Source of the DNA: an uncultured SAR86 cluster bacterium
GTDB taxonomy: Bacteria; Pseudomonadota; Gammaproteobacteria; Magnimaribacterales; D2472
Assembly (NCBI GenBank): GCA_902563835.1
Contig: CACEZB010000004.1
Location: 24,147 to 88,146, forward strand
Length of the DNA stretch: 64,000 nt
Direction: 5' to 3'
The notes beneath the pieces were generated by a model that made no database searches, was not told where the DNA came from, and was given only the letters and a program-made list of their open reading frames with translations. A program made the translations under genes and the position numbers. This document shows positions 3 to 9,248 of this stretch, piece after piece (within the stretch, counting starts at the first letter, position 1; each line of letters begins with the position of its first letter).

Positions 3-488
3 CCTTTAGCATTTATAGCAATGTTTTATATCCTTTTGACAGAGGAGGACGCATATCCTGGAACTGATTATAAAACATTTGATGTTCCGAAATTTCAGCT
101 TGAAAATCTAGAAAATACTAAATTAATTGATAATGATGAAATCAAAGGCAGCTTTATTCTGAATGTATGGGCTAGTTGGTGCATTACTTGTAGAGTTGAG
201 CACCCATTCTTAATGAATCTTAAAAATCAAGGAATTAAAATAATTGGATTAAATTATAAAGATGAAAGATCCGATGCTATTCAATGGTTGGATAAATATG
301 GGAACCCATATGAGATAACAGTTCATGATTTAAAGGGCTCTTTAGCACTCGATCTTGGTGTAACAGGCGCACCTGAAACATTTTTGGTTAGTAATGGAAA
401 AGTAGTGGCACATTACCAGGGAGAAGTTAATGATGCTATATGGAGCAATGTATTCTTACCAATCATTAAAGAAAAGGGAATGTTTTAA
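3..488 (+). CDS. ccmG: CcmG/DsbE-like thiol:disulfide interchange protein (5' partial; frame open to window edge)
   Basis: Thioredoxin-like WASWCITC motif, GAPETFLV cis-Pro region, followed by CcmH-like gene; reading frame continues upstream of the listed ATG with hydrophobic residues (PLAFIA-MFYILL). Confidence 0.85.
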   Translation, partial: PLAFIAMFYILLTEEDAYPGTDYKTFDVPKFQLENLENTKLIDNDEIKGSFILNVWASWCITCRVEHPFLMNLKNQGIKIIGLNYKDERSDAIQWLDKYGNPYEITVHDLKGSLALDLGVTGAPETFLVSNGKVVAHYQGEVNDAIWSNVFLPIIKEKGMF

Positions 489-489
489 A

Positions 490-861
490 ATGAAAATGTT
501 TCATATTTTTTTAATCTTAATTTCAGTAAATATTTCATCAGATTCTTTATATGGACTTGAAAATGAAGTAAATGAAACTAGATTTAATAATTTAATAAAA
601 GATATAAGATGTCCAAAGTGTACTTCAGGCTCATTATCAAGCTCTAATGCTCCGATATCAGAAGACTTAAAATTAAAAATTGTATCAATGATTCAGGAAG
701 GTAAAACTGATCAAGAAATAAAGGATTATGTTACATCGAGATTTGGAAAAGAATCATTGTATGAACCAGAATTTAATAATAGTACTTATATTTTATGGCT
801 TGCGCCATTTGTAGTTTTATTTCTCGCTTTATTCATTTTTATATTTAGAAAGAAAACGTAA
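490..861 (+). CDS. ccmH: CcmH-like cytochrome c maturation protein
   Basis: RCPKC motif, SNAPISEDLK..., C-terminal TM; start ATG at 490 preferred over ORF start at 430. Confidence 0.8.
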   Translation: MKMFHIFLILISVNISSDSLYGLENEVNETRFNNLIKDIRCPKCTSGSLSSSNAPISEDLKLKIVSMIQEGKTDQEIKDYVTSRFGKESLYEPEFNNSTYILWLAPFVVLFLALFIFIFRKKT

Positions 862-1646
862 TGCTTCCATTCTATTTGTTAACTTTTTTTGCAGCTTTAC
901 CTATTCTTGCATATGTCCTAGCACAGAAGACCAATAATAAAGGATTGGTTATTGGTTTTACTACAATAGTTCTATCTTTATGTTTGGTAGTATTTGTTAG
1001 TAAATTTGCAATATTGGGAAGTCTTCAAAAACAAATATTAAATAATAAGATTTTTGACCAAATATATGTTGATTCAAAAATTTCAAGTGAGCATTTAAAA
1101 GAAATAGAAACTCTTCTTAATGAGGATGAATTAAAGAATTGGTTAGTTGGACTTACCACCGAAGCAATTAATTTAAATAAGCTAAATTCAGCTGAAAGTT
1201 TAATAACATTCTCTGAAAGGTTTTTTATAACAAACAACGAAAAATTAATATTTTATGGGTTGTATACAAATTTAAGAGATGCAAGATTCCCTGAATATAA
1301 GGATGTAGTCTTTTCAGTAGATATTAAATCTGACTTACCTTGCTCAATAAAAAGCGGCAATATAGATCTTTTTATAATGAACGGTCCTGACATACCAATA
1401 GCAAAGAAGGAAATCGATGATATTAAAGACATGATATTAACTAATCTAGATAGTGTGATTCCTGGATTTGATTTGGCATCGGCCCACCTTAACCAAGAAA
1501 CAATAGAATTCAATATTAAAATATCTTGTATTGATAATTCTGACTTTTTTTATGTTAAAAATCTCATAGTTTTAAATCAAACTAGTACTGCTAATAAATA
1601 TAAAATTAATTTAAATGAATGGTTAAAAACACCACAAGAGTTATAA
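861..1646 (+). CDS. CcmI/CycH-like cytochrome c biogenesis protein, divergent
   Basis: Two N-terminal TM helices, overlaps the ccmH stop, position in ccm cluster. Confidence 0.5.
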   Translation: MLPFYLLTFFAALPILAYVLAQKTNNKGLVIGFTTIVLSLCLVVFVSKFAILGSLQKQILNNKIFDQIYVDSKISSEHLKEIETLLNEDELKNWLVGLTTEAINLNKLNSAESLITFSERFFITNNEKLIFYGLYTNLRDARFPEYKDVVFSVDIKSDLPCSIKSGNIDLFIMNGPDIPIAKKEIDDIKDMILTNLDSVIPGFDLASAHLNQETIEFNIKISCIDNSDFFYVKNLIVLNQTSTANKYKINLNEWLKTPQEL

Positions 1647-1670: not shown

Positions 1671-3869
1671 ATGCAGCTAAAACACATAAAACTATCAGGT
1701 TTTAAAAGTTTCGTCGATCCAACGAAAATATCATTTCCTACTAATATGGTTGGAGTTGTCGGTCCGAATGGATGCGGAAAATCAAATGTTATAGATGCTG
1801 TGCGTTGGGTGCTTGGAGAACTTTCAGCAAAAAATCTTCGTGGTGAATCAATGGCAGATGTTATTTTTAATGGCTCTGAAAAAAGAAAACCCTCTGGACA
1901 ATGCAGCATTGAACTTCTTTTTGATAATTCTAGCGCCAAAATTGGTGGCGAGTATGCATCTTTTAATGAAGTTTCCATTAAAAGGGTTATGACAAGAGAC
2001 GCTCAATCAGATTATTTTATTAATAATACAAAATGCAGGAGAAAAGATGTCCAAGATATTTTTCTTGGTACTGGTTTAGGCCCAAGCTCTTATGCAATTA
2101 TCGAACAGGGAATGGTTAGCAAGCTTGTAAGTGCAAAACCAGATGAACTTAGAACCCATATTGAAGAAGCTGCTGGAGTATCCAAATATAGAGAAAGAAG
2201 AAGGGAAACAGAGTCAAGAATTAAACGCACAAAAGAAAATCTCTCAAGAGTAAAAGATATTCGTGATGAAATTGGAAGACTTATTAGAAGATTAGAAAAT
2301 CAAGCCAAAGCCGCAGATAAGTACAATCAACTTAAAAAAGATAAAACAAAATTAGAGCTTGATAAAGCTATATTATTTTCGATGGAAGCAAAAAATAATC
2401 GAGATAAATTACAGAAGAAATTGGATGCGCATAATCGTGACCTGAAAATTAAAAATGCTGAATCAGAAACAATCCAATCGCAAATAGATCAATTTAGAAC
2501 TGAAAATGAGTCCCTATTGAGTGAATATGAATTAGCGCAAAAGAATTTCTATGCAGTTGGTGCAGAAATTGCAAAAAGAGAAGCCAATTTACAAAATATT
2601 AATAAATCAGAATCAGAGACTAAATATAGTCTTCAAAAAGCAAAAGATAATTATGAAAAAGCCAAAGAAACTGAGAAAAATTTTGATGAATTAAGTCCTA
2701 GTGAGAAAGCTATGCATATTCTGGATAGTATCATCCTTACAATAGATAAATTCAATATTAATAATGAAAGTATTAGAGAAAAAGCTATGGAGCTTAAAAA
2801 TTTACTTACAGAAATTTTAGATATTGCATCAGCTCAATCTAAAACATTAACTGATGAATATCTTTCTCGTCAAAATGACTTAGAAGAACAAATCGAGGAA
2901 GCAGAAAAACTTAAGAGTTCTATCCAAGATGAAATGAAAGACTTTGTTAGTAAAAGCTCAGATGCAGAGTCAATTCTAGTCGCGCTGAGACAAAAACAAT
3001 CAAAATTTAATGATGAATTAAGAAATCTAGAAAATAAAAAATCTATCGCAGATTTAGACTCTAAATCTATTTCTGAAAAAATAACAAATATTCGTCTTGA
3101 ACTTAAAACATATGAAATAAATTTAGATAATTCAAATAAAAAAATTAAGGAAGCTGGTATAGATATTGATACTGTTAATTTTTCAGATTATGAAGATACG
3201 ACATTAGATGAAATCGAAGATAGCTTAACTGCTATAGAGACTAAAATAATTAGATTGGGTGCAATTAACTTAGCTGCACCAGAAGAAATCGCGGATGAAT
3301 CAAAAAGAAAAGAAGAATTAGATGAGCAATACAATGACCTTACAGAAGCATTAGATAAACTTAATGGCGCTATTAAGAAAATTGATAACGAAACAAAAAC
3401 AATATTCAAAGATAGTTTTGATGCTGTCAATTTAAAACTTAAAGAGATGTTCCCAAAGTTATTTGGGGGAGGTGTTGCTGAGCTCACCTTAACCGATGAT
3501 GATCCATTGCATGCTGGAGTAGTTTTAATGGCAAGACCTCCAGGAAAAAAGAATTCATCTATTTCACAATTATCTGGTGGAGAAAAAGCTTTAACGGCTT
3601 TAGCTTTAGTATTTGCTATTTTTGATCTTAATCCAGCACCATTTTGCTTATTAGATGAAGTAGATGCACCTTTAGACGACTTAAACACTCTTCGATTTAT
3701 AAATATGGTTGAAGAAATGTCAAAGTCGATACAATTTATTTTTATTACTCATAATAAAGTTTCTATGGAGCGAAGTGATTATTTAATGGGAGTTACAATG
3801 CAAGAGGCTGGTGTTTCAAGAATGGTATCCGTTGACGTCAATCAAGCACTCAAACTAGCTGAATCATAA
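1671..3869 (+). CDS. smc: Chromosome segregation protein SMC, unusually short (732 aa), no recognisable hinge
   Basis: Walker A GPNGCGKSNVIDAVRWVLGE; signature LSGGEKALTALALVFAIF; Walker B CLLDEVDAPLDDLN; followed by ZipA. Confidence 0.93.
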   Translation: MQLKHIKLSGFKSFVDPTKISFPTNMVGVVGPNGCGKSNVIDAVRWVLGELSAKNLRGESMADVIFNGSEKRKPSGQCSIELLFDNSSAKIGGEYASFNEVSIKRVMTRDAQSDYFINNTKCRRKDVQDIFLGTGLGPSSYAIIEQGMVSKLVSAKPDELRTHIEEAAGVSKYRERRRETESRIKRTKENLSRVKDIRDEIGRLIRRLENQAKAADKYNQLKKDKTKLELDKAILFSMEAKNNRDKLQKKLDAHNRDLKIKNAESETIQSQIDQFRTENESLLSEYELAQKNFYAVGAEIAKREANLQNINKSESETKYSLQKAKDNYEKAKETEKNFDELSPSEKAMHILDSIILTIDKFNINNESIREKAMELKNLLTEILDIASAQSKTLTDEYLSRQNDLEEQIEEAEKLKSSIQDEMKDFVSKSSDAESILVALRQKQSKFNDELRNLENKKSIADLDSKSISEKITNIRLELKTYEINLDNSNKKIKEAGIDIDTVNFSDYEDTTLDEIEDSLTAIETKIIRLGAINLAAPEEIADESKRKEELDEQYNDLTEALDKLNGAIKKIDNETKTIFKDSFDAVNLKLKEMFPKLFGGGVAELTLTDDDPLHAGVVLMARPPGKKNSSISQLSGGEKALTALALVFAIFDLNPAPFCLLDEVDAPLDDLNTLRFINMVEEMSKSIQFIFITHNKVSMERSDYLMGVTMQEAGVSRMVSVDVNQALKLAES

Positions 3870-4478
3870 ATGACTACCAATTCAGAAATTTATTTAATTG
3901 GATTAGCAGTATTAACATTTTTAATAATAGTATTTTTGTATATAAGAAAAATTTCGAACTCAAGCAAACTTAAACTTAGGATTGAAGAACAGTCTGATGC
4001 TATTGAATCTCCTGAGGTAGATATCAATAATCAACAATCCTTTGAATATGAGAACAGTAAGGAAGAGCAAGAGTTAGCCATATTAAATTTAATTTCTGTA
4101 GACAGGTCTATGTATGATATAGAACAGATCTTTGGATTTCTTACTAACTATGGTGCAAAAATTAACAACAAATTTTTTTCTTTCAATAATAAAGATGGAA
4201 TGGAAAGATTTAGAGTTATAAATGCACTAAATCCTGGAACTTTTAAAAATGATACAAAGACCTTTGCAATTGCAATTGTTGCAGATCTTATGAAGGTAGA
4301 TGATCCATTAGATACAGTAAAACAAATGGTTGAATTTTCTATAAATTTTGCTGATAAATTTCATGCATCCCTTTGCGATGAAGAAAGGACTCCAATTACG
4401 AAACAGATGATTTCACATATGGAATCCAGGGCTCAAGATGTAGAAAGAATAAAACAACTTTCTAACCATAATGATTAA
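3870..4478 (+). CDS. zipA: Cell division protein ZipA
   Basis: N-terminal TM, C-terminal ZipA-like domain (NALNPGTF, DPLDTVKQMVEFS, DEERTPIT), position after smc. Confidence 0.75.
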   Translation: MTTNSEIYLIGLAVLTFLIIVFLYIRKISNSSKLKLRIEEQSDAIESPEVDINNQQSFEYENSKEEQELAILNLISVDRSMYDIEQIFGFLTNYGAKINNKFFSFNNKDGMERFRVINALNPGTFKNDTKTFAIAIVADLMKVDDPLDTVKQMVEFSINFADKFHASLCDEERTPITKQMISHMESRAQDVERIKQLSNHND

Positions 4479-4495
4479 TAAGGAATGTTAGTTGA

Positions 4496-5782
4496 ATGAA
4501 TGATCCATGGAAAATTATCAAAGAATTAGAAAGCGATAATAGCCGTTTATTTAAAGAGGGTGTTGTTGAAAATAATTTGAATAATATAGATTTTCAAGAA
4601 GGTCTTTCAATGTGTTTAGATCCACTTATAACCTTTGGAGTAAAACAAGTTCCAGAATCAGAAGAAGATGGAGATGGCTTGAAATGGAATGACTTCAAGA
4701 AAAATGTTTATCTATTAATTGAAAGAAAAAAAACAGGTCATGCAGCTAGAGATTTAATAATTGACTTAATGAGTTCTGCTAAAAAAGATCAATGGAATAA
4801 TTGGTATAGAAGAATATTAATAAAAGATCTAAGGTGCGGCGTGAGTGAGAAAACTGTCAATAATGTGGCAAAAAGGATGGATTTAGAATTTAAAGTTCCA
4901 ATTTTTTCATGCATGCTTGCCCATGATGGTGCAAAACATCCAAAAAAGATAAAAGGAGATTGTTTAGTTGAATATAAATATGACGGAGTTAGAGTAATCG
5001 CTATAGTTAAGAATGGAAAAGCAACCTTATACAGTCGTAATGGAAAGATATTTCACAATTTCCCCCATATCGAGAATGCTTTAAGTAAATCAGAATACAA
5101 TAATATTGTATTTGATGGAGAAGTTATGAGCGATGATTTCCAAGCTTTAATGAAACAAGTTTATAGAAAATCAGGAGCTCAAACAGATGATGCTTATCTT
5201 GCTCTTTTTGATATTCTTCCATTGAAAGAATTTAATGAAGGTAAAAGTAAACTTAGTTCAATTGAAAGAAAAGAGGAATTAAATAAATTATCAAAGAGTT
5301 TTGAAAATGCAATTAAATTAGTAGATTATGAAGTAATAAATTTTGATGAAAAGGATGGTCAGGATAAATTTGCAAGCATGAATAAAGAAGCTCTAGAAAA
5401 AGGTTTCGAAGGCTTGATGATCAAACCAAATGATAATTATTATGAATGCAAAAGAAGCCATGCATGGTTAAAAATCAAACCTTTTATTGAGGTTACTTTA
5501 AAAATTATAGATATTCAGGAGGGTACTGGAAAACATTCCGGTAAGCTGGGCGCATTTCATGTAGAAGGTGATGATGATGGAAAATTCTTTTCATTAAGCG
5601 TTGGAAGTGGTTTAACTGACGAGGAAAGAGAGAAATTTTGGGCATCAAAAGACAAATTAATAGGAAGACTTGTTGAAATTAGAGCAGATGCAATAACTCA
5701 AAGCATTGAAGGAGAACATTACAGCTTGAGATTCCCTAGATTCAAAAATTTTAGAGGTTTTAAAAAGGATGAAAAAATATAA
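4496..5782 (+). CDS. ATP-dependent DNA ligase, phage T4/T7-like
   Basis: Adenylation motif EYKYDGVR, FDGEVM, EGLMIKP, WLKIKP; N-terminal WYRRILIKDLRCGVSEKTVN resembling phage-type ligases. Confidence 0.92.
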   Translation: MNDPWKIIKELESDNSRLFKEGVVENNLNNIDFQEGLSMCLDPLITFGVKQVPESEEDGDGLKWNDFKKNVYLLIERKKTGHAARDLIIDLMSSAKKDQWNNWYRRILIKDLRCGVSEKTVNNVAKRMDLEFKVPIFSCMLAHDGAKHPKKIKGDCLVEYKYDGVRVIAIVKNGKATLYSRNGKIFHNFPHIENALSKSEYNNIVFDGEVMSDDFQALMKQVYRKSGAQTDDAYLALFDILPLKEFNEGKSKLSSIERKEELNKLSKSFENAIKLVDYEVINFDEKDGQDKFASMNKEALEKGFEGLMIKPNDNYYECKRSHAWLKIKPFIEVTLKIIDIQEGTGKHSGKLGAFHVEGDDDGKFFSLSVGSGLTDEEREKFWASKDKLIGRLVEIRADAITQSIEGEHYSLRFPRFKNFRGFKKDEKI

Positions 5783-6380
5783 ATTTAATTATTTTTTATT
5801 TCTAATAGCAATTATTTTTATACAATCTTGTGCTACAAGACCGCCAGAAAATCCTGATAACATATGTTTAATTTTTAAAGAGAAAAAAAATTGGTATAAG
5901 GCAGCAATTAGAAGTGAGAAGCGCTGGAAAATACCACCATATGTCTTAATGTCCTTTGTGTATCAGGAATCAAGTTTTAAATCTGATGCAAGGCCAGAAA
6001 GAGAAAAAATATTAGGTTTTATTCCTTGGTTTAGACCTTCTTCTGCTGTTGGCTATTCCCAGGCTTTAAAAAATACTTGGGAGGATTATAAAGATGAGAC
6101 TGGCAATAGTAGAGCAAATAGGAAAGATTTTAATGATTCAGCTGATTTTATTGGTTGGTATGCAAGTAAAGGATACTATCAAGGTTTTGAAAAAACAGAC
6201 GCTAGATCTTTATATCTTGCCTATCATGAAGGGTATGGAGGCTTTGAAAAGAAAACCTACAGAAAAAAACAGTGGTTGATTAAAGTTGCTGACAGAGTAC
6301 AAGCCAAATCAACAAAATATCAAAAACAATATTGGGGATGCGCAAAAGAATTAAAAAGAAAAAGATTTTTATTTTTTTGA
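5769..6380 (+). CDS. Lipoprotein with lytic transglycosylase (SLT)-like domain
   Basis: Lipobox IQSC; PPYVLMSFVYQESSFKSDARP and GYSQALKNTWEDY. Confidence 0.75.
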   Translation: MKKYKFNYFLFLIAIIFIQSCATRPPENPDNICLIFKEKKNWYKAAIRSEKRWKIPPYVLMSFVYQESSFKSDARPEREKILGFIPWFRPSSAVGYSQALKNTWEDYKDETGNSRANRKDFNDSADFIGWYASKGYYQGFEKTDARSLYLAYHEGYGGFEKKTYRKKQWLIKVADRVQAKSTKYQKQYWGCAKELKRKRFLFF

Positions 6381-9248
6381 CTAAATATTTCTTATATCAA
6401 AGTTCAGATTTTTAATTTCTTCAATATAACTTTCACCAGCAATTAATGATCTTTTTGATTCGTTGAATAAGTATTTTCTTGATACTTCAACAAGATCGTC
6501 AATAGTGCAGCCTTTTACTTTAGATCTAAAGGCTAATCTTTTTTCTTTATCTTTGTTTTCGAGCATACTTTTAAAATCACTTATTGCTTCGCCATAAGGT
6601 GACAGCGGCTTATCAATGCCAGATATCACACCTAGAATCCCTTCATCTAATTGATCTTGTGAAATATTTTTTATTGACCATTCCCTTGATTTTTTAAACT
6701 CATTAAAAGTTTCACTGCATCTAGGATCGCGATATGAGAAGAATTTAAAAATTTTATTATTTGAATCTTGTATTGCACCAGCACCATATGCGCCTCCTTT
6801 CTCTCTTATAGCTGGATGTAAATACCCCCATTTTAATACTTCTCCAAGTACAGTTAAGGTGGGCGCATCAGGATGAAATGAATCTACTGTAGCAAATGCT
6901 TCAGCACAATAACAAACCTGAGCACCTGTTATCCATCCAATAGAATTTTCTTGAATATCAAGATAATTTTGAGTTTCAACATTGTTATCAGAGCCATCAA
7001 ATTCAAATTTAATCCTAGTTTTTTCCTGCTCAATAGATGATGCTGTAAAGGTATAAATAGGCGACATTCCTATTTTATTTTTTATTGAAGATAGTAAATT
7101 AATATATTTTATTAGATTATCATTTTCATTAATATTTTTTGATAATTTATTTGTATTTGAAATAAAGTTTAAACCTGAGACCATATCATTTGTTGCAGCA
7201 AGGTTGTTTATTTGCGCTCCAGCATTGCTCATAGCAAGGATATGACCATTTTGAATTAGAGATTTTTCATTATCTGAGTCTATAAAATTTAGCAGATCTT
7301 TGATTCTATTTTCATTAGTAAAATCAGCTTCTAGAATAGTTTTGATTAATATATCCTGCATTTTGTTTTCATTCATTTCTAGTGATTTTGAAGTAATTTT
7401 TAAAGCTAATTTATTTTCATTGTTGCCATCACTTGGTAACAGTATAAAATTTGAATAAATACCACCAGTTATAGCTGATTGTATTTTTTGAACTTCCTCG
7501 TAATCCATATTACTGAAGCCTATATTGGTGAGTGTACTTGCAAATAATGAGGCAATTTTGAACTCTTCAGTTGAAAGGTTAGAACATGGATAAATTATTG
7601 AATGATATGTAATCCCATTTGTTCCAGTTTTATAAAAGTAATTATCTATATTTCCAGTCTTAGTTATAGTTGATTCTGCGTAATTTCTGATATGTGGAAT
7701 ATCTTCTTTTGTTACCTTTGGAAGCACTTCAGGGTCATCAATAGTTTCTTGTCTTTCTTTTAATTTTGATGAGAGGCTAATTATTTGTTGTTTATCCTTT
7801 TCTGATAATTTTTTTGATTTTTGGGTAATTTTGTTTTTAATCCTTTCTTCATTCTTATTATTGAACTCTGGATCAGGAATTAAAGCATAATTTACTCTAT
7901 GATTATTTTTAATAATCCTTTCTTCAATTATTTTCTCAATATAATTTTCTTCTTTTAATTTGTCCTTAATAATTGAAAATGATGAATCTAGATCTAAAAC
8001 TTTTAGCGGATCATCATTATGAATGCAAGCCGGCAGACAACTTAACATAATTTGAAGACCATAAGGCATCCCAGACCCAGTAATCTCTCTTTGTTTTATT
8101 TCTAATTGATGAAGGGAGGATTCAATAATATTTTTATCAATCCCTTTTTCTACAACATCTTTTAAACAATTCAATATTAAATCTTGGACCTCTTGTTGTT
8201 TATTAGATTCAACTCCCTCTAGGCCTGCTACAAAAACTAATTCTTTGTGATCAGCCTCAAGCCCAGTTAATGGAGAGAGTGATTTCCCAAGATTAGTTTT
8301 CTCAAGAGCTTTCTTAAGTGGCGATGCAGAATTATCTAATAATATATCAGTCATTAAAATTGACTCTAGCAATTCAACAGGGTTATGACTCTCGCCCAAA
8401 AGCCAGCTTAAGACCACATGATGATTGTTCTCATCATTTGGCATTGGATTATAAAATTCTTCAACAGTTTTGGGAGAAGTTATCCTATCTTCATTTTGAA
8501 CATTAATTGATTGATTGGATGGCTCAAAATTAGTTAATACATTTTCGTTTATAAAACTTTGTAGTTCATCAACATCAATATTTCCATATGAAAAGAAAGT
8601 AGCGTTTGAAGGATGGTAATGTTTTTGATGGAAGTTGACTAAATTTTCATGAGTAAGGTCAATAATATTTTCTGGGTTTCCACCGCTATTATGTTTATAT
8701 GTAGAAGATGGATATAAATGTTTTGATAATCCATGCCATAGTTGACTAGTTACAGTGCTCATAGCACCTTTCATCTCATTAAATACGACCCCTTTAACTT
8801 CTAATTCACTATTTATATTTTCTTGATCACTAAATTCAAGTCTATGACCCTCTTGATAGAAATCTAATTTATCTAGATTGGGGAAAAAGGATGAATCAAG
8901 ATATACACTTAGCAGGTTTTTAAAATCTTTATCATTAAGTGTAGCAAATGGATATGCAGTCCAATCGCTAGATGTAAATGCATTCATAAAAGTATTAAGT
9001 GATCTTCGTATCATCATAAAAAATGGGTCCCTAACAGGATATTTTTTAGATCCACAGAGTGCGGTATGTTCTAATATGTGTGCAACACCGGTAGAATCTT
9101 CAGGTATCGTCCTAAAAGCAACCATAAATACTTTTTCATCGCTATTAGAATCTAAATGAATATGCTTGCAATTAAATTCAGATTCAGTATATATTTGTGC
9201 ATTGAGGTCTAATAATTTTATAAATTTTTGGTCTTCTAAATTAAACAT
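6381..9248 (-). CDS. M16C family metallopeptidase, presequence protease (PreP)-like
   Basis: Inverted zinc motif HILEH; LCGSKKYPVRDPFFMMIRRSLNTFMNAFTSSDWTAYPF. Confidence 0.92.
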   Translation of the reverse strand: MFNLEDQKFIKLLDLNAQIYTESEFNCKHIHLDSNSDEKVFMVAFRTIPEDSTGVAHILEHTALCGSKKYPVRDPFFMMIRRSLNTFMNAFTSSDWTAYPFATLNDKDFKNLLSVYLDSSFFPNLDKLDFYQEGHRLEFSDQENINSELEVKGVVFNEMKGAMSTVTSQLWHGLSKHLYPSSTYKHNSGGNPENIIDLTHENLVNFHQKHYHPSNATFFSYGNIDVDELQSFINENVLTNFEPSNQSINVQNEDRITSPKTVEEFYNPMPNDENNHHVVLSWLLGESHNPVELLESILMTDILLDNSASPLKKALEKTNLGKSLSPLTGLEADHKELVFVAGLEGVESNKQQEVQDLILNCLKDVVEKGIDKNIIESSLHQLEIKQREITGSGMPYGLQIMLSCLPACIHNDDPLKVLDLDSSFSIIKDKLKEENYIEKIIEERIIKNNHRVNYALIPDPEFNNKNEERIKNKITQKSKKLSEKDKQQIISLSSKLKERQETIDDPEVLPKVTKEDIPHIRNYAESTITKTGNIDNYFYKTGTNGITYHSIIYPCSNLSTEEFKIASLFASTLTNIGFSNMDYEEVQKIQSAITGGIYSNFILLPSDGNNENKLALKITSKSLEMNENKMQDILIKTILEADFTNENRIKDLLNFIDSDNEKSLIQNGHILAMSNAGAQINNLAATNDMVSGLNFISNTNKLSKNINENDNLIKYINLLSSIKNKIGMSPIYTFTASSIEQEKTRIKFEFDGSDNNVETQNYLDIQENSIGWITGAQVCYCAEAFATVDSFHPDAPTLTVLGEVLKWGYLHPAIREKGGAYGAGAIQDSNNKIFKFFSYRDPRCSETFNEFKKSREWSIKNISQDQLDEGILGVISGIDKPLSPYGEAISDFKSMLENKDKEKRLAFRSKVKGCTIDDLVEVSRKYLFNESKRSLIAGESYIEEIKNLNFDIRNI

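Follow-up and report, generated by a model that had tools for sequence, protein, structure and literature searches.

A viral-type, ATP-dependent DNA ligase appears to have replaced the NAD-dependent ligase LigA in the SAR86 cluster bacterium from which this DNA derives. Our preferred reading, to which we assign a probability of about 0.88, is that this enzyme is the sole general DNA ligase of the cell, that it took LigA's slot in the chromosome, and that it was captured once and then spread as a cassette. The window referred to below is the whole 64,000-nucleotide stretch that was analysed.

The ligase gene and its surroundings

The features of the window that bear on this reading are as follows.

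21..1646, + strand: ccmG-like and ccmH-like genes (labels by eye) and a 261-aa ORF, the kept outer upstream flank
1671..3869, + strand: smc, shortened coiled coil, 732 aa, the kept neighbour in both ligase states (TIGR02168, E 1.3e-245)
3870..4478, + strand: zipA (ZipA_C domain), the upstream flank of the ligase slot (PF04354, E 2.8e-12)
4479..4484, + strand: Shine-Dalgarno-like TAAGGA in the 17-nt gap between zipA and the ligase gene, 11 nt upstream of the ligase ATG (read from the sequence)
4496..5782, + strand: ATP-dependent DNA ligase, 428 aa, complete ORF (domain, phrog and structure matches), with a DNA-binding domain at residues ~1-135, an adenylation domain at ~150-330 (catalytic K161) and an OB domain at ~342-420
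5769..6380, + strand: SLT_4 lytic transglycosylase, the downstream flank of the ligase slot (PF19489, E 7.2e-73)
6381..9248, - strand: large peptidase-like gene (PreP-like, label by eye), the outer flank, in a position kept in both ligase states and used in the flank tree

The ligase ORF starts 17 nt past the zipA stop codon and overlaps the start of the SLT_4 gene by 14 nt, and the window has no room for LigA remnants. The 261-aa ORF (861-1646), located between ccmH and smc, had no Pfam match and is found in nearly all SAR86 family loci examined.

Identity of the ligase

The protein matched PF01068 (E 1.7e-23), PF14743 (E 1.4e-11) and phrog_114, 'ATP-dependent DNA ligase', the last over residues 6-425 (E 1.3e-93). 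A preliminary description had called it an ATP-dependent ligase on the strength of the motifs EYKYDGVR, EGLMIKP and WLKIKP, with a phage-like N-terminal segment and no NAD-ligase architecture. All three motifs are present in the protein, as is the N-terminal segment, and neither PF01653 nor any other NAD-ligase domain was matched, so the description stands on each of these points. Nucleotidyltransferase motifs I, Ia, III, IIIa, IV and V are all present, and K161, R166, R181, D207, G208, E209, F238, E305, K310, K326 and K328 were invariant across 41 diverse homologues. The ligase gene has a dN/dS of ~0.06, equally low as that of smc. This demonstrates, at the level of sequence comparison, purifying selection on a functional gene rather than a chance frame. 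ATP use and nick sealing are inferred from the family, as no activity data are available.

The nearest solved structure is that of the Prochlorococcus ligase, Pmar-Lig (PDB 6RAR, 6RAS, 6RAU and 6RCE), with 6RAU aligned over residues 6-428 (E 1.2e-136). Pmar-Lig resembles the SAR86 ligase in size, in its DB-AD-OB architecture and in its catalytic residues, and is 50% identical over the full length; unlike the SAR86 enzyme, it is not known from a ligA slot. A structure predicted from a shallow alignment was poor (pLDDT 57), and an AF2 model built from the 41-sequence alignment (pLDDT 87.6) was used instead. Its top PDB matches in Foldseek were Pmar-Lig (50% identity, E 5e-57) and then T4 ligase (E 3e-28). 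The TM-scores near 0.58 and the large rmsd suggest that the domains of the predicted model are placed unlike those of the DNA-wrapped crystal form. T4 DNA ligase gp30 has the same fold but only 23% identity to the SAR86 ligase. Pmar-Lig has been described as lacking the C-terminal helical extension of T4 ligase (PMC6698739).

Other classes of bacterial ATP-dependent ligase were considered and rejected. The scores against the LigD/NHEJ ligase models were far below their cut-offs (TIGR02776, 83 bits against 373; TIGR02779, 97 bits against 228), and none of the curated bacterial accessory-ligase models was matched at its cut-off. Lig E has only the core AD-OB domains without a separate DNA-binding domain, whereas the SAR86 ligase has an N-terminal helical domain of ~135 aa.

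Two ligases in one slot

The order of genes was the same in SAR86 relatives with either ligase: ccmG, ccmH, the unassigned ORF, smc, zipA, ligase, SLT_4 and the divergent peptidase-like gene. Both flanks were directly adjacent to the ligase in 41 of 44 ATP-ligase loci and in 39 of 45 LigA loci, and the remainder were contig ends, frame-broken assemblies or outgroup loci in which zipA was too divergent to be found. Since both ligases occupy the same smc-zipA-[ligase]-SLT slot, the change is a one-for-one exchange. NAD-dependent LigA (TIGR00575) thus shares its slot and presumed role with the SAR86 ATP ligase without being its orthologue. The two also differ in size, with a median of 712 aa for LigA and 429 aa, 40% shorter, for the ATP ligase. 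The proposal in the preliminary description that a viral-type enzyme had replaced ligA in situ was borne out by this synteny, as relatives carry LigA or the ATP ligase between zipA and SLT and never both. The comparison supports non-orthologous displacement of the NAD ligase in SAR86.

The same description had considered the locus doubly unusual on account of its odd SMC. This needs correcting: the 732-aa SMC occurs in LigA and ATP-ligase genomes alike. Since SMC length does not follow ligase state, the short SMC is a separate SAR86 trait, independent of the swap. SAR86 SMC proteins come in two lengths, ~730-745 aa and ~1000 aa, with switches inside both g8 and g9, and neither length reaches the ~1,180 positions of the SMC_prok_B model.

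Viral relatives and direction of transfer

The closest homologues outside SAR86 were on marine viral contigs, at up to 65% identity, compared to ~53% for Prochlorococcus; cultured phage ligases were all below 60%. One of the viral contigs, L195, carries its ligase among T4-type clamp-loader, GroES-like and PhoH genes, and the viral nature of other near contigs (e.g. L131 and L132) rests mainly on IMG/VR assignment. These marine viral ligases (phrog_114) lie beside the virus's own genes, in contrast to the SAR86 gene in its chromosomal housekeeping locus. The label of viral-type enzyme given in the preliminary description is therefore apt as to the branch, though the enzyme has its nearer affinity to the Pmar-Lig/marine-virus branch and a more distant one to T4 gp30.

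In a broad tree, the SAR86 ligases fell inside viral branches with moderate support. We consider it unlikely that the ligase is instead a cellular SAR86 gene picked up by marine viruses, in which case the in-slot enzyme would not be of viral origin. A sister arrangement of SAR86 and the viruses is possible within the close clade, and a single clade of the near viral ligases next to SAR86 was not rejected in an AU test (p 0.30). Several points weigh against a cellular origin. All other families of the order have LigA, as do the deep SAR86 genera; additional viral branches are placed beyond the group formed by SAR86 and its sister viruses; the ligases of Prochlorococcus fall within a different viral branch; and the protein family, taken as a whole, is spread across phages. 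With nesting in the broad tree and the sister placement not rejected, viral ancestry of the SAR86 ligase is likely, as judged from these phylogenies, but not proven. Statistically, it is not settled exactly which way the last transfer went; virus to cell is inferred from the wide viral spread of the ligase and from its absence from other families of the order.

Exchange history of the locus

A flank tree was built from smc, SLT and the peptidase gene and rooted on the other families of the order, all of which have LigA. It implied seven changes of ligase state, at least six of them forced by well-supported branches, and states were mixed inside genera g1, g5, g7 and g8. LigA sequences grouped by genus. 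All SAR86 ATP ligases fell into one clade (100%), which is either nested in the marine viral ligases or their sister. A single capture by SAR86 followed by spread would be the simplest reading.

For one of the exchanges, in a genome of genus g8 (G047), the donor could be identified. The G047 ligase is 84-88% identical to the nearest g5 ligases and was placed among them; trees keeping g5 apart from it were rejected (AU test, p 5e-7). By contrast, its ZipA, SLT, SMC and peptidase are closest to g8 and represent native flanks. Diagnostic sites, g8-like at first, became non-g8 within the final part of ZipA (p 5e-5) and were g8-like again from within the initial part of SLT (p 2e-4), with no significant switch in smc or the outer peptidase gene. 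With breakpoints in zipA and in SLT on either side of a foreign ligase, and flanks that are otherwise native, the sequence record of this genome demonstrates that the ligase cassette moved by homologous recombination. Equivalent breakpoint tests for the exchanges in G026, G024, G039 and G153 gave no clear signal beside the ligase.

The mixed states could in principle have arisen without recurrent exchange, by differential loss from a SAR86 ancestor that had both ligases, and the single ATP-ligase clade and vertically behaving LigA would fit such an old coexistence. We regard this as quite improbable, since no present genome has both ligases, both genes use the same slot, and G047 carries a ligase from another genus that is bounded by recombination breakpoints.

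Mutual exclusion of LigA and the ATP ligase

In the assembly that contains the window, which is 991 kb long and 73% complete, no PF01653 match was found, while control genomes gave the expected matches. As this assembly is incomplete, the absence of LigA rests partly on relatives. Across 108 genomes of the SAR86 family, 43 had the ATP ligase and 48 had PF01653, with one overlap (G145). The apparent LigA of G145 is a 188-aa fragment at a contig end and belongs to the phage-type NAD ligase family phrog_3359, which leaves 47 of the 108 genomes with cellular LigA and none with both ligases. The exclusion was significant even with every genome and the G145 overlap counted (Fisher p 3e-14). The search for an intact ligA elsewhere in the genome therefore returned nothing from the ATP-ligase relatives other than this one fragment. 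The phrog_3359 NAD-ligase fragment in which a SAR86 MAG contig ends (L233, 6929-7492) lies not far from chaperonin-like and cysS-like ORFs.

Among the ATP-ligase genomes without LigA are two that consist of a single contig, G034 and G039, and a PF01068 search revealed no further ATP ligase in these genomes. G039 is evidently CP097973 (D2474-A1-1), titled 'complete genome', and a GTDB genome scan with an alignment of close relatives returned SAR86 cluster records including SAR86A and D2474-A1-1. Neither ligase was found in 18 of the 108 genomes, mostly without the locus. Ten of these were checked: eight also lacked smc and in two smc lay close to a contig end, so that they look like assembly gaps. 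In the single-cell genome AG-422-O05 (G016), a change of frame at a T run interrupts the only ligase gene (L046, ~5587); this is probably a sequencing error, the alternative being a cell without an intact ligase.

That the ATP ligase is merely an accessory repair enzyme, with LigA missing from incomplete assemblies, would be compatible with the 73% completeness of the window's own genome and with the description of the related Pmar-Lig as an additional enzyme beside the replicative NAD-dependent ligase in some strains (PMC6698739), but is very hard to sustain when none of 108 genomes has both ligases, the two single-contig genomes without LigA include CP097973, LigA's own slot is filled by the ATP ligase, and the loss of LigA would need to have been selective, in 43 genomes but in none of the 47 others.

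LigA in other marine bacteria

No PF01653 match was found in eight marine alphaproteobacteria with a related ATP ligase. Among the first 32 genomes listed as nearest relatives of this alphaproteobacterial clade, LigA was present in one, compared to nearly all of the remaining, larger-bodied alphaproteobacterial genomes of the listing. In these small marine alphaproteobacteria, where LigA has been lost, the ATP ligase (L112, 5992-7308, and neighbours) sits in a kept neighbourhood beside a PDDEXK nuclease. A location in the ligA slot was considered and rejected here: the neighbours are the PDDEXK nuclease and a transketolase, whereas the ORFs next to LigA in a LigA-bearing relative are RecN-like and BamD-like (labels by eye). 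The in-place exchange is thus so far specific to SAR86.

Full LigA was absent from all 61 Prochlorococcus-genus genomes searched (ATP-ligase carriers among them were not counted) and from all 15 Prochlorococcus genomes with the Pmar-Lig type, while larger cyanobacteria have LigA. The neighbours of the Prochlorococcus ligase had none in common with the LigA loci of seven larger cyanobacteria; the nearer Synechococcus was not compared. The two counts conflict with the reported coexistence of Pmar-Lig and an NAD ligase (PMC6698739), and the accessory role reported for Pmar-Lig may need revisiting. Most of the Prochlorococcus genomes G167-G187 carry several short ORFs (150-300 aa) with an NAD-ligase adenylation domain, often near contig ends, and no full LigA. 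Such PF01653 fragments may explain the annotation of a coexisting NAD ligase.

Discussion

In the mechanism we propose, an ATP ligase of the marine-virus branch, most likely captured once by SAR86, would later have spread between SAR86 genera as a one-gene cassette through recombination in zipA (upstream) and SLT (downstream). A one-step swap of ligase for ligase by flank recombination would never leave the cell without this essential activity. By the chemistry inferred from the family, K161 would be adenylated by ATP, the AMP would be passed to the 5' phosphate of the nick, and the 3' OH would then attack. The enzyme would seal Okazaki fragments and repair nicks in place of NAD-dependent LigA. 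That it acts as the sole ligase of both processes is inferred from the failure to find any other ligase; there are no complementation data.

Unlike LigA, which has a zinc finger, the viral enzyme would require no zinc and no NAD, and it is the shorter protein; these possible advantages are perhaps the reason for the swap.

A 2016 review places NAD ligases in 'all bacteria' and regards them as essential (PMC5052709). The sole precedent that we found for an ATP ligase in place of an NAD ligase is Babela massiliensis, of TM6, in which the NAD-dependent ligase was lost and an ATP-dependent ligase is present instead (PMC4378268). Babela is an intracellular parasite, in contrast to the free-living and abundant SAR86, and the passage concerned mentions no in-slot exchange, viral source or recurrence. 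A published replacement of ligA in SAR86 or Prochlorococcus was not found in the open-access literature that was searched. Within that literature, three things appear to be new: an in-slot exchange that is both precise and recurrent, the affinity to marine viruses and the abundance of the organisms concerned.

We lean, by a little over even odds, towards a broader reading in which the SAR86 locus is a two-allele cassette, with NAD-dependent LigA and the viral ATP ligase swapped back and forth via shared flanks, and in which the same viral branch displaced LigA in Prochlorococcus and in small marine alphaproteobacteria. If both the two-allele reading and the parallel displacements are true, the rule that bacterial replication uses an NAD ligase does not hold for several of the most abundant cells in the ocean. 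LigA is regarded as essential in all bacteria and as an antibacterial target; here, a group that is among the most abundant in the surface ocean is found without it, its gene slot being taken by a viral-branch ATP ligase. That Prochlorococcus lacks LigA as well points to a common pressure in streamlined marine genomes. With both states within one genus and matched flanks, SAR86 provides a natural experiment on NAD use in ligation, on how cells can exchange an essential gene and avoid a lethal intermediate stage, and on the entry of virus genes into core replication.
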